Assembly: GCF_002161555.1 (NCBI RefSeq)
Contig: NZ_NFHZ01000007.1
Coordinates: 62,001-126,000, forward strand
Length of the DNA: 64,000 bases
From: Barnesiella sp. An55
GTDB lineage: Bacteria; Bacteroidota; Bacteroidia; Bacteroidales; Barnesiellaceae
Reading direction: 5' to 3'
Both the position numbers and the translations under genes were made by a program. The notes under the pieces were generated by a model that made no database searches, was not told the origin of the DNA, and saw nothing but the letters and a program-made list of their open reading frames with translations. Below, piece after piece: positions 870 to 44,835 of this stretch. How positions within the stretch are numbered: position 1 is the first letter of the stretch; the number at the start of each line of letters is the position of its first letter.

Positions 870-3428
870 TTACTGTTTAACCCGAAATTTAAAAACATCT
901 ATCCCCTCGGTCGATTGTACCCGGGCGATATACACCCCCGAGAGAAGGCCATCGGTCGTCATCACCTGTTGAGCCCCCGATGAGATGGTATCGCGTACCA
1001 TCATGCCCGAGGTCGAGAAGAGCGACACCCGACGCAGTTCGGCATCGCCGGTCGAGGCTACCACAATGTGGCGAGCCTGCTCGTCGTAGATGAGACTGGT
1101 ATTCTTCTGAGGCTCCTTCGAGAGTTCATGCAAAGCCGATTCGCCCGAAGTCGTAGTAATAATCGTATCGACATTGGCCGAGATGACCAGATTGGCTGCC
1201 CGTATCAAACTCAACGGATCGGATACCGACACGTCGTTACCCATATCGAAATACATCACCGTACCGCTGTTCTGCTCGAGAATGAAATTCATCTTGTCCT
1301 TTACACAATCGACCCCGTTGAACGTATAGGTCGAACCCGACATCGTGGCCGTATTCATATCGGGGGTAAGGTCGGGATTGGCGGCCACGATATTTTTGTA
1401 GCCCGATACCGTGCTACCCGTACTGGCCGTCGTGGGGAACGACATGCCTATCTTCTCCTTGGGGAATCCCCAAGCGATGAAATCGTTGTAGGCCGATACG
1501 TAATTGTCATAAGCAAACCAGGTAACTGCCGGCCCGTAAATCTGGAAGGTATAGTAATCGGGCATATTGATGTACTCGGTAGGCAGATAGTAGGCTACCG
1601 GGTGCAGCGACACACTGAACACCTTGTCGGAGGGAATGGCTTCGCGTAACTGCTCCACCATGGGACCATAACCGGTATTCCAGCGGGAGTCGCCGCTGTA
1701 AAGCCACTCAAAGTCGATATCTATGCCATCGCAATAGGGCAACAACTCTTTCACATCGGCAACCAACTGTTCACGCCAGGCAGCTTCCGATATGTGCGAC
1801 AGCCATACTTTATTTCCACTATCGTCCTTGTCCGACGAGATGAGCCCGATGCGTATCTTGTATCCGCGATAGCCCGCGTAAAGCTTGCGAATCTCGCCCA
1901 GCATCTCTTTCCAGCTGCGGGTATCCTTGCCGGGATTCTCGGCATCGTCGAACTTCCAATAAGACAACAGATAGATGGCTCCGTCACTCCCGCCCGGGAA
2001 AGTCAGGTCGCCCGACGTACCGGCAGCATCCTGAGCCACCTTGTCGGCGCTACGAGAGTTACCCCATACCATCACCTCGTCGAGATATCCTTTGAAGTTC
2101 TCGCCAATCACGGCATCGGCCGTCGTGCTCAAGAAGGTAAAGTCGTCCTCGGCAGGAATCGTCGATAGTTGGGTTGCATATAACTGATTGGCCCCGCTGT
2201 TGGTATAGAGCACGATACGGGCCTGGGCACGACTCGTACTCGAGACGATAGCCACAGCCACATGTTCCCAACCGTCGGCCTTCAACGCATTCTCAAAATT
2301 ATAGGTATATCCGTTAATCTCTACGATAAGCTCCTTCTTCGACTCGTCGCCCAGCTTCACGGCCAGTTGATGGTTGTCGTCGCTCTTGTTGAAGATAGCG
2401 GCTCCCGTGCGCCACTCCTCGATATTCATCCAAGCCTCGATAGTGGCATAGTTAAGCGTAGGCAACCCCAAGTTGTTGTTCAATACCTTGTCGCCCACAT
2501 TCATGCCGGCACCTTCGCCCTCGAGATGAAGCACGCCACTGCGGCCGTCATACTCGCTCACATAAGAGGCATTGGCAAAAGTACCCTGGTTGTCGGGGTA
2601 GGTCATGGTCACCTCGCCCGTGTAGCCCGACACCTGACCGTCGAGGAAGATGACATCGTTGGTGAGCAGGTGCATGTCGCGATCGATCTGCAAGCGGTCG
2701 CTATGGCGTACAAACGATGAATAGCCCGACACAACCCGGTATTTGAAATAGGCGTTGTCGGTCACGGCCTCGCGAGTCACATTCACCGTTTTGCCATGAT
2801 GAGCCAGTTTGTAATCGACAATATCTTCACATTGGTCTTGATCGAACTTGTAATAAAACAGCAGGTTGTCATATTTGGGGTGGAACTTGTTGACCGTGTT
2901 GCGGAACATCAGGTTCTCGGGTTCGGCTCCCGGCATCTCGGTGTTCCAAAAACGAAACTCATCGAGGCGCCCCTTGAAATTCTCACCGATGACAAAGGGC
3001 TCGGCCGACTCGGGAATCACAGCTCCTGCAGCATTGGCCTTCCAGGCCTTCTCGCCATTGGTCCACACGTCGATACCATTGCCAAAAGCCGAGATTGTAA
3101 TTTGGGTCCACTCTCCTACCGGCAATTCGGTCGATGCAGTTATCTCTTGACTGCCGGTCTTATAGACAAGTTGCCCGGTCGTACCCAGCCGCAACGAAAA
3201 CTCCTCGTCGCCACTACCCCGTTTAAATACATAGGAATTCTCCACCCACTCCGATGGATTTACCAAAAACTGTACAGAATACAAACTCAAGTTATTCAGG
3301 TCTTGTATGGTCCCGCAATCGACCCGTCCATCGCCATTGAAGCGCAAGGCATAGTTGGTGGTTTGCGAAAACGCCGACCCGGCATATAATATGCCCAGAA
3401 AAATAAGCCAAAAAAACTTTGTTTTCAT
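870..3428 (-). CDS. Secreted LamG-LamG-GH18 glycoside hydrolase with T9SS sorting domain
   Basis: An 852-residue protein with a signal peptide (about 1-21, ending SAFSQ), two LamG/concanavalin-A-like modules (about 25-200 and 295-495, each with an ENFKG-LDE strand and a closing YYKFD or YWKFD strand), a GH18 catalytic region (about 510-750) and a C-terminal T9SS-type sorting domain (about 775-852, ending GVYIARVQS...FKFRVKQ). The GH18 signature DxxDxDxE is visible as D567, D570, D572 and E574 in CDGIDIDFEW; E574 is the expected acid/base. GH18 enzymes are chitinases or endo-beta-N-acetylglucosaminidases using substrate-assisted catalysis, so GlcNAc-containing glycans are the likely target (inference). 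The catalytic barrel looks short at its N-terminus. It lies between the T9SS cargo gene and susC in the HTCS-linked locus. Confidence 0.88.
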   Translation of the reverse strand: MKTKFFWLIFLGILYAGSAFSQTTNYALRFNGDGRVDCGTIQDLNNLSLYSVQFLVNPSEWVENSYVFKRGSGDEEFSLRLGTTGQLVYKTGSQEITASTELPVGEWTQITISAFGNGIDVWTNGEKAWKANAAGAVIPESAEPFVIGENFKGRLDEFRFWNTEMPGAEPENLMFRNTVNKFHPKYDNLLFYYKFDQDQCEDIVDYKLAHHGKTVNVTREAVTDNAYFKYRVVSGYSSFVRHSDRLQIDRDMHLLTNDVIFLDGQVSGYTGEVTMTYPDNQGTFANASYVSEYDGRSGVLHLEGEGAGMNVGDKVLNNNLGLPTLNYATIEAWMNIEEWRTGAAIFNKSDDNHQLAVKLGDESKKELIVEINGYTYNFENALKADGWEHVAVAIVSSTSRAQARIVLYTNSGANQLYATQLSTIPAEDDFTFLSTTADAVIGENFKGYLDEVMVWGNSRSADKVAQDAAGTSGDLTFPGGSDGAIYLLSYWKFDDAENPGKDTRSWKEMLGEIRKLYAGYRGYKIRIGLISSDKDDSGNKVWLSHISEAAWREQLVADVKELLPYCDGIDIDFEWLYSGDSRWNTGYGPMVEQLREAIPSDKVFSVSLHPVAYYLPTEYINMPDYYTFQIYGPAVTWFAYDNYVSAYNDFIAWGFPKEKIGMSFPTTASTGSTVSGYKNIVAANPDLTPDMNTATMSGSTYTFNGVDCVKDKMNFILEQNSGTVMYFDMGNDVSVSDPLSLIRAANLVISANVDTIITTTSGESALHELSKEPQKNTSLIYDEQARHIVVASTGDAELRRVSLFSTSGMMVRDTISSGAQQVMTTDGLLSGVYIARVQSTEGIDVFKFRVKQ

Positions 3429-41304: not shown

Positions 41305-42933
<1,629 letters not shown>

Positions 42934-42951: not shown

Positions 42952-43113
42952 GAAAAAATAATCTACATACCGGCACAATGTACACGATAATTATTTCTTT
43001 TCGAGCCGAACACCCACAGACTGCAGACACCAAGCCCCTACCCAAGACTCCCGAATGGCAAAACCTTGTGACTCCCAGGCCGACTTTTGTCTCTCTTGTT
43101 CAAGATGGATTCT

Positions 43114-43283
43114 CTATCTTTTCAGAAGCAAGGAGACGGTTCGGCATAGCCAAACGTCGAAAACTTCGTTTTCCGTTTGCCTCTACGCTCACCTTTCACT
43201 ATCTTTCCAGAAGAAAGGAGGCGGTTCGGTATAGTCAAACGTCGAAAACTTCGTTTTCCGTTTGCCTCTACGCTCACCTTTCA
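43114..43283 (+). repeat. Two tandem 85-bp units carrying a Bacteroidetes promoter
   Basis: Units 43114-43198 and 43199-43283 have an exact 85-bp period, differing at about six positions; a third start (CTATCTTTG) begins at 43284. The last 48 bases of each unit are identical. Each holds the short inverted repeat GAAAAC-TTC-GTTTTC and the -33 TTTG; the junction with the next unit forms the -7 box. Upstream of the first unit a weaker, older-looking partial copy may exist. Confidence 0.85.
43176..43207 (+). promoter_or_regulatory. Upstream duplicate promoter with a damaged -7 box
   Basis: TTTG (43176-43179), a 20-base spacer and TATCTTTC (43200-43207). The final G of TAnnTTTG is C in this copy, so it should be weaker than the downstream copy. 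Confidence 0.5.
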
Positions 43284-43292
43284 CTATCTTTG
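43261..43292 (+). promoter_or_regulatory. Consensus promoter for the DUF3078 gene
   Basis: TTTG (43261-43264), 20-base spacer, TATCTTTG (43285-43292): a full match to the Bacteroidetes promoter. Predicted start near 43299, about 88 bases before the ATG at 43387. Confidence 0.8.
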
Positions 43293-43386: not shown

Positions 43387-44835
43387 ATGGGCTCACGAAT
43401 CGCCACTATTCTCGTCAGTATTCTTTCCATAACCGGTTTATCGGCCATGCCGGTCAGCCCGGCCGATAGTACGGCTCATACCCCCCAACCTCTCGCCCCC
43501 GAGGTAAAAGTGGTAAAGGCCGATTCAACTACTGCCCCTCTCACGGCCATCGATTCGATACAATATCAGCAAGAGGCCAACCAGAAACTGCTCTTGCTGA
43601 TGGAGACCGACTCGACCAACGAAGAGCTGCCGGTTATCCAAATGCTGCACATGCTCGAATATGCCGACAGCCTGAAGGCGGTTCAAGGGGCAAACGAAAT
43701 GCCGGTCAACCCGCTGTTCCTGCCCATCGTATTTAAAGAGCAGATGTCCACCCCCCTGCAACACTTGTCGATTCCCAAGGACGACCCCTTCAAACCCAAG
43801 GAGCTCTCGGTGAATGACCAATGGCTGCAAAAAGAGGCGCAAAGCGAAAAGACTCGCAACATGGCTCAAAACTATGTCATTGTCAATTACCCCAAGATGA
43901 TTCGATACAACCTTGACAATCTGCCCGACGTGCCCAAGCAATATATCATCGAGAACGATCCGGTGAAGCATATTCTCTCTATCAAGGAGAAGCCCTTGAT
44001 TATCAAGAACAATGTAGGAAAAGAGAAGATTAAGTTGAAACGTTGGATCATCAACTTCCAGTCGTCGGTACAGTTCTCGCAGGTCTATGTGTCGGAAAAC
44101 TGGTATCAGGGAGGTACCAGCAACGTGAACCTGCTGAGCGACCAACAGTTCTCGATCAAATACAACGACCCCAAGGAGCAACGCATCTTGTTTGAGAATC
44201 TGGTGCAGTGGAGGCTGAATATAAACAGTGCCCCCGAGGATACCTTACGCTCGGTGAGAATAAGCGAGGATCTGTTCCAGATAAACTCCAAGTTTGGTCT
44301 CAAAGCCTACAACAAATGGTACTACACGGCTACACTGAACTTCAAGACGCAGTTCTTCTCGAACTACACGGCCAATACCAACGACAAGGTTGCGGCATTT
44401 CTTTCTCCGGCCGAGCTGAATATCGGTTTAGGTATGTCGTACCAGTATAAGAACGAGAAGAAACAGTTCGACTCTTCGGTATCGCTGTCGCCGCTCTCCT
44501 ACAACCTGCAATTCATCATCGACAACGACATGGCCCCCACCAGCTTCGGCATCAAGTCGGGCAAAAGCATCAACCAGTACGGTTCGTCGTTCGAGGGGCG
44601 CTTTACATGGGAGTTCTACCACAACATGGTGTGGACCTGCCGGCTGTTCTACTTCACCAGCTACGACCATGTACAGGGCGACTTGGAGAATACGTTCGAC
44701 TTCATTCTCAACCGGTTCTTCTCTACCCGACTGTTTGTGCACCTGCGCTACGACGACGCCCTGGCGCTGAACAAAGACCTGGGGCACTTCCAGTTGAAAG
44801 AGCTGCTCAGTTTTGGATTTAACTATAAGTTCTGA
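43387..44835 (+). CDS. DUF3078 family outer-membrane protein
   Basis: 482 residues from the ATG at 43387, which gives MGSRIATILVSILSITGLSAM, a plausible signal sequence; the longer frame would include the repeat region. The C-terminal two-thirds match the DUF3078 pattern (VYVSENWYQGGTSNVNLLSD, FENLVQWRLNIN, KFGLKAYNKWYYTATLNFKT, FFSTRLFVHLRYDD), which reads as a beta-barrel ending in LLSFGFNYKF. The N-terminal part (about 30-230) is mixed and charged. Role unknown. Its stop overlaps the start of the next gene (TGATG). Confidence 0.78.
   Translation: MGSRIATILVSILSITGLSAMPVSPADSTAHTPQPLAPEVKVVKADSTTAPLTAIDSIQYQQEANQKLLLLMETDSTNEELPVIQMLHMLEYADSLKAVQGANEMPVNPLFLPIVFKEQMSTPLQHLSIPKDDPFKPKELSVNDQWLQKEAQSEKTRNMAQNYVIVNYPKMIRYNLDNLPDVPKQYIIENDPVKHILSIKEKPLIIKNNVGKEKIKLKRWIINFQSSVQFSQVYVSENWYQGGTSNVNLLSDQQFSIKYNDPKEQRILFENLVQWRLNINSAPEDTLRSVRISEDLFQINSKFGLKAYNKWYYTATLNFKTQFFSNYTANTNDKVAAFLSPAELNIGLGMSYQYKNEKKQFDSSVSLSPLSYNLQFIIDNDMAPTSFGIKSGKSINQYGSSFEGRFTWEFYHNMVWTCRLFYFTSYDHVQGDLENTFDFILNRFFSTRLFVHLRYDDALALNKDLGHFQLKELLSFGFNYKF

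Follow-up and report, generated by a model that had tools for sequence, protein, structure and literature searches.

The two predicted promoter copies that precede the DUF3078 gene in the analysed DNA of Barnesiella sp. An55 (a stretch of 64,000 nt, hereafter the window) belong to a family of 82-nt repeat units which, as judged from sequence comparison, are probably small non-coding mobile repeats of Bacteroidales, inserted at the -7 boxes of existing promoters or promoter-like sites. Like MITEs, the members of the family are short, non-coding, multi-copy and dispersed, and they are bounded by a target-site duplication, namely the 8-bp -7 box on both sides.

The tandem pair upstream of the DUF3078 gene

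The pair is flanked by pyrG (CTP synthase, minus strand, start at 42906) and the DUF3078 gene (start at 43387). A repeat search of the window yielded two copies of 85 nt, which occupy 43110-43194 and 43195-43279; their identity is 93% at a spacing of 85 and 31-32% at period 84 or 86, so that the exact 85-bp period of the original prediction is borne out. The last 48 bases of each copy had also been said to be identical; the identity is there, but the length was understated, as the longest run matching at period 85 spans 56 bp (43151-43206 versus 43236-43291). Both copies contain TTTG-N20-TATCTTT, with the final G missing only in the upstream one, exactly as had been proposed: the -33-type TTTG motifs at 43176-43179 and 43261-43264 each stand 20 nt 5' of TATCTTTC and TATCTTTG, respectively. 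The inverted repeat GAAAAC-TTC-GTTTTC of the original prediction is present but forms merely the tip of an 82-nt palindrome. The repeat core has no further match within the 64,000-nt window, and 100 shuffles gave 0 matches. The natural boundaries of the two units, which differ from those of the 85-nt copies, are listed with the other features in Table 1. The box TATCTTTT to the left of the first unit is, by its sequence, best read as an older -7 box, coming either from the original promoter or from the end of a decayed unit.

Table 1. Features of the tandem pair and of the gene that follows it (positions in the window)
Feature	Position	Strand	Remarks
Box TATCTTTT directly left of the first unit	43115..43122	+	Similar arrangement at 29/80 leftmost units
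Distal unit, 82 nt, left end AAGCAAG, quasi-palindrome, TTTG-N20-TATCTTTC	43126..43207	+	Aligned with 44 other units
Inner hairpin AAACG-TC-GAAAAC-TTC-GTTTTC-CGTTTG, proximal unit	43237..43264	+	Second copy at 43152-43179
Predicted -33 box TTTG, distal promoter	43176..43179	+	
Predicted distal -7 box TATCTTTC	43200..43207	+	Last G lost, as in 43/119 internal units
Linker CAG	43208..43210	+	With the preceding C: CCAG, one of few recurrent 4-nt linkers
Gene-proximal unit, 82 nt, TTTG-N20-TATCTTTG intact	43211..43292	+	
Predicted -33 box TTTG, proximal promoter	43261..43264	+	N20 spacing in most units
Predicted -7 box TATCTTTG for the DUF3078 gene	43285..43292	+	Fits the TAnnTTTG consensus of PMC7366714
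Downstream gene, 482 aa, called DUF3078 in the original prediction	43387..44835	+	One orthologue in each of 9/9 Barnesiella genomes

Copies in the An55 genome and distribution among relatives

With the proximal unit as the BLAST query, 61 matches were found at about 40 places in the An55 genome (3.03 Mb, 49 contigs); the genome-wide counts rest on searches and on the retrieved stretches. The core had been expected to recur in the same genome and does so, at about 40 other places, upstream of genes. At the approximately 40 loci, the last unit is followed by a same-direction open reading frame, the start of which usually lies 5-60 nt downstream; from the starts of their sequences, these genes presumably include dnaB, argS, metG, proS, obgE, aroC, ychF, ruvX, purT, rpe and uvrD/pcrA. 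The 61 genomic copies, together with the turnover at orthologous promoters and the duplicated 8-bp box (see below), support the original prediction of a dispersed, mobile promoter element.

The unit family is represented in all nine Barnesiella genomes examined, and the named Barnesiella among the search matches are An22, Ca. B. excrementavium and Ca. B. excrementigallinarum. A survey of Bacteroidales with a covariance model returned hits at E<=1e-6 in 19 of 295 genomes and 11 of 183 sampled genera, several at high copy. Copy number at the DUF3078 locus is not fixed, ranging from 0 to 3 among nine species, as a mobile element would lead one to expect: the orthologous intergenic regions hold 2 (An55), 3, 1, 2 (decayed), 1, 2, 0, 0 and 0 units. 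At 11 other orthologous promoters, the nine Barnesiella species have 0 to 5 units each.

The units of genome G243, which belongs to another family than Barnesiella, score as high as those of Barnesiella, raising the question of horizontal spread. Units are also present in 'Bacteriophage sp.' scaffolds obtained from human faeces (H1-H10; MT835991.1, MT836672.1 and others), which are unverified and unannotated and may be bacterial fragments. A search of plasmids for the units gave no match, and the IMG/VR contigs have no exact match to the 33-base core.

Structure of the units and predicted promoters

The 82-nt consensus obtained by iterated profile search of the retrieved loci is AAGATAGGATGCGGTTCGGCATAGnCAAACnTTGAAAACTnnGTTTTCCGTTTGCCTCTGCGCTCACCTTTCACTATCTTTG. 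The unit is one long imperfect hairpin over its full 82 nt, closing with a sigma-ABfr-type promoter, TTTG-N20-TATCTTTG. Its ends, AAGATAG and CTATCTT, are complementary over 7 bp and both are part of this single continuous hairpin; the left end is hereafter called the antibox. When the structure of one copy was counted over 45 units, 89% of the cells were paired, and the palindrome covaries, with 43 both-side changes, against a shuffled expectation of 15.4 +/- 3.0 (0 of 500), and with far lower values whenever the register is slid. RNAalifold gave no structure for a whole-unit consensus fold of the MAFFT alignment. On the plus strand of the hairpin, A.C outnumbers G.T (169 versus 98; p=2e-5), from which no strand preference is concluded because the excess lies mostly in antibox pairs, where the promoter holds the box. 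An RNA element of a known family was considered and rejected, Rfam having no match at the units. A shorter subfamily of about 62 nt, AAATAGGCTGCATTCGGCAAAGTCAAGCAAGCTTGCTTTTGCCCTCATTGGCACTATCTTTG, occurs at loci of G006 (e.g. L079, 3048-3109), and a 70-nt subfamily, AAAATAGGATGCGTCTCAGTATAAAAATCAAGCAAGCTTGTTTTTCTACTTTCGACTTTCACTATCTTTG, is mixed into the arrays at L054 and L055.

The sigma-ABfr consensus of Bacteroidetes consists of TTTG at -33 and TAnnTTTG at -7 (PMC7366714). The 3' part of the units contains both elements about 20 nt apart, and most units preserve the TTTG-N20-box spacing. Gene-proximal units retain the last G of the box in 144 of 153 cases, compared with 76 of 119 for internal units (p=2.4e-10), a difference that selection on the proximal promoter alone would be expected to produce. 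From these features we infer that the units act as promoters. In G243, a unit box ends about 4-5 nt before the RNase P RNA, the model of which is matched from its first position; this RNase P RNA gene is at L264, 1143-1496 on the minus strand, with the unit directly 5' of it. The units had been envisaged as ready-made promoters that switch on neighbouring genes. In unit-free species, the genes behind most of the examined units already possess their own promoter, which is more in keeping with units that replace an existing promoter or are stacked upon it.

Filled and empty sites at the -7 box

Filled and empty alleles of the same promoters (dnaB, ychF, ruvX, metG and others) have otherwise matching flanks, the difference between them being one unit, located at the -7 box TAnnTTTG. 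Each insertion is flanked by two boxes, the old one to the left and one of the same locus type to the right, and the box-to-box length across insertions is 74-91 bp. At dnaB, the empty site of G001 reads ...gattcgcTATTTTTGtaacctg and the filled site of G008 ...gattcacTATCTTTTcataagacagg ... cctttcgcTATTTTTGtaacctg; at ruvX, the corresponding sequences are ...TATCTTTGcaatcgttt in G005 (empty) and ...TATCTTTGaataagatagg ... TATCTTTGcaatcgttt in G002 (filled). The cleanest case comes from a CRISPR array of G001, in which 19 repeats, caaatttgTATCTTTGacttattaaatacagc, are intact and the outermost one is split at its TATCTTTG by a unit (caaatttgTATCTTTCaagaagatagg ... cctttcacTATCTTTGacttattaaatacagc; 83 bp box to box). 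Alignment of the flanks thus recovered the target-site duplication anticipated for a mobile element, in the form of a locus-specific duplication of the 8-bp -7 box. A longer target-site duplication that includes the linker was seen in G007 segment D and aspC but was rejected as a general feature.

Because the boxes are short and AT-rich, any single duplication could be a coincidence, and the case stands on many loci. Within the 14 nt adjoining the 80 leftmost full units, TAnnTTT was found in 29, mostly 4 nt off, compared with 0-8 in equal upstream windows, these unit counts reflecting partly non-independent events as some of the loci are orthologous; the other 51 have no recognisable box at the left edge.

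The CRISPR array of G001 (L196; G001:C1, ~573353) extends over 1250-3080 and matches Rfam CRISPR-DR49, with a 47-nt repeat that contains GTATCTTTG. A decayed second unit end, CTCTCCTTTCACCCTCTTTGACTTATTAAATGCAGC, lies one repeat beyond the split outermost repeat. Since the repeat holds a -7-like box, each CRISPR repeat may be a promoter.

The box and the antibox are matched at individual loci. The empty promoters of a gene that we take to be sulfatase-like have the box TATATTTG (G008, G003 and G000); in the filled promoters of G001, G004 and G007, the right box is TATATTTG, the left one is TATATTT and the left end is AATATAG, which replaces AAGATAG. The same three genomes use units of the TATCTTTG/AAGATAG type at other loci. 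Overall, position 3 of the antibox is T in 15 of 17 TATATTT units versus 6 of 168 TATCTTT units (p=1.6e-15; the units are not fully independent). The TATATTT units are polyphyletic by core, and the closest cores are often those of TATCTTT units (97% between L194 and L221, for example), which indicates that the switch of box and antibox occurred several times.

Growth of arrays

Arrays hold 1-5 units. The neighbour is the closest relative in 21 of the 55 adjacent pairs, a pattern that suggests local tandem duplication or homogenisation. In the other 34, a unit from a different locus equals or exceeds the neighbour in similarity (up to 97.5%, with 73% for the neighbour), which suggests that a new unit arrived at the box. 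At the window locus, the similarities to the neighbour and to other loci are tied, at 93.9% each way, and the two copies may stem from local tandem duplication. The linkers come from a small set, GTAG (the commonest, 26), GGAT, TCAG, GAAT and CCAG (also frequent), TCAT, GTTACACG and GCATGCTGCG, some of them apparently species-typical.

Possible mechanisms and alternative explanations

In the proposed scheme, a unit would land at the -7 box of a promoter, with the old box then lying to its left and a locus-type box to its right. The gene-proximal box would then drive the gene together with the TTTG of the unit at N20, the insertion would swap the promoter without loss of a promoter, and the old promoter would become a redundant upstream spare and subsequently decay. 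Arrays would grow partly by local tandem duplication and partly by new arrivals at the box. The movement itself could be transposition of a single strand, with the left-end antibox as its guide, or else recombination or template switching at the box.

Two accounts that dispense with mobility fare poorly. Ordinary tandem duplication of the promoter by replication slippage is in line with the exact 85-bp period and with the 94% identity of the copies, which matches that of the closest pairs elsewhere in the genome. It is very improbable as an explanation of the family: the number of genomic copies, the absence of units from orthologous promoters that have a single box and the unit within a CRISPR repeat refute slippage as the full account, although for the second copy in the window it may hold. 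Hardly credible at all is a regulon, that is, an operator-promoter for a dedicated regulator or sigma factor that is alike through function and not through descent. Same-direction genes do lie downstream at many loci, but they are unrelated housekeeping genes, identity is about 90% across 82 bp, both sides of the stem change together, unlike those of a fixed operator, and orthologous genes of close species are without the unit.

If the units are mobile repeats inserted at -7 boxes, as preferred here, the mode of copying can be envisaged in different ways. Transposition in trans, as a single strand, by an IS200/IS605- or TnpA_REP-like enzyme would use the antibox AAGATAG as a guide, pairing it with the left cleavage or target box and with the right-end box. 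IS200/IS605 elements choose their sites through guide sequences that lie 5' of each palindrome and base-pair with the sites (PMC8266576). The single imperfect hairpin, an insertion point 3' of a short fixed sequence with the box repeated at the right end, the antibox-box covariation and the identity of the commonest linker with the REP tag GTAG all agree with such a mechanism. Against it, a Y1 transposase is missing from An55, scores above the cut-off in only one of the nine Barnesiella genomes and is absent from most other carriers; furthermore, the polyphyly of the TATATTTG units by core means that guide and end box must change together repeatedly. This mode is considered rather doubtful. 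The Y1 transposase was rejected as the mobiliser given that most carriers lack one and that the one of G006 has no unit nearby.

Somewhat higher is rated copying without an enzyme, through template switching or recombination at the 8-bp box that is common to many housekeeping promoters, a tentative choice that falls short of an even chance. Here, the box-antibox complementarity would be maintained by intrastrand template-switch correction of the quasi-palindrome. The box is the sole sequence common to donor and target and is of the locus type on both sides, box and antibox have changed repeatedly between otherwise similar cores, and no Y1 transposase common to the carriers was found. Every such event, however, requires two switches at 8 bp, and many inserts are nonetheless precise single units; besides, the patchy high copy number in a few genera resembles more an active element. 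It is also conceivable, if improbable, that the antibox pairs with the single-stranded -7 box of an open promoter complex, whereupon the unit would insert and rebuild the box; transcription would then mark harmless landing sites, and a change in the antibox would retarget the element.

Comparison with known repeats and implications

Correia elements (CREE, NEMIS) of Neisseria are small non-autonomous inverted repeats with more than 100 copies, often located 5' of genes, which form promoters at their ends and occupy different sites in different strains (PMC2649163). CREE are bounded by inverted Correia repeats and have TA as their insertion site, whereas the units, which contain another kind of repeat, are found at TAnnTTTG, an existing 8-bp -7 box that is kept on both sides, with the -33 box at a fixed distance. 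BrickBuilt and other MITEs of Porphyromonas gingivalis, a member of Bacteroidales, are likewise dispersed intergenic promoter-bearing repeats, but BrickBuilt differs from the units in being a 23-nt minisatellite with a leader and tail, IS5-type TIRs, variable TSDs and bidirectional promoters (PMC4596501). No targeting of a promoter -7 box was encountered in the accounts of Correia elements (PMC2649163) and BrickBuilt (PMC4596501). REP/BIME (TnpA_REP, RAYT) and IS200/IS605 resemble the units in their bulged imperfect palindromes, in the GTAG tag of many copies, which here is one of several frequent linkers, and in the short sequence 5' of the hairpin that is complementary to the cut site (PMC8266576). 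Unlike these, the units are longer (82 bp), carry a promoter and reside at promoters, and most carriers, including An55, have no TnpA_REP or Y1 transposase. Ordinary sigma-ABfr promoters, in contrast, are not repeated sequence families. The BLAST matches span the whole unit or its 3' half, and among them no gene was seen between split unit ends, as a parent transposon would have. No description of the repeat family or its sequence was found in the open-access literature searched. Beyond the original prediction, the analysis adds the choice of the -7 box as the target, the duplication of this box, an antibox matched to the locus, and a spread in Bacteroidales that is wide but patchy.

Mobile DNA usually harms the adjoining gene. 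This family would enter the promoters of essential genes (dnaB, argS, metG, proS and obgE) and leave a promoter each time, so that the housekeeping promoters of one genus seem to be undergoing exchange for copies of a single repeat. The system could serve as a natural test bed for promoter turnover and for the movement of non-coding repeats without a visible transposase, and as a source of ready-made promoter parts for gut Bacteroidales. As a caution, motif searches for promoters in these genomes will return repeat families and not regulons.

A separate match was noticed in a Barnesiella locus (L064, 2271-2324, minus strand), where a sequence that resembles a terminator hairpin matches Rfam Ref55, an Enterococcus sRNA family, with 70.8 bits.
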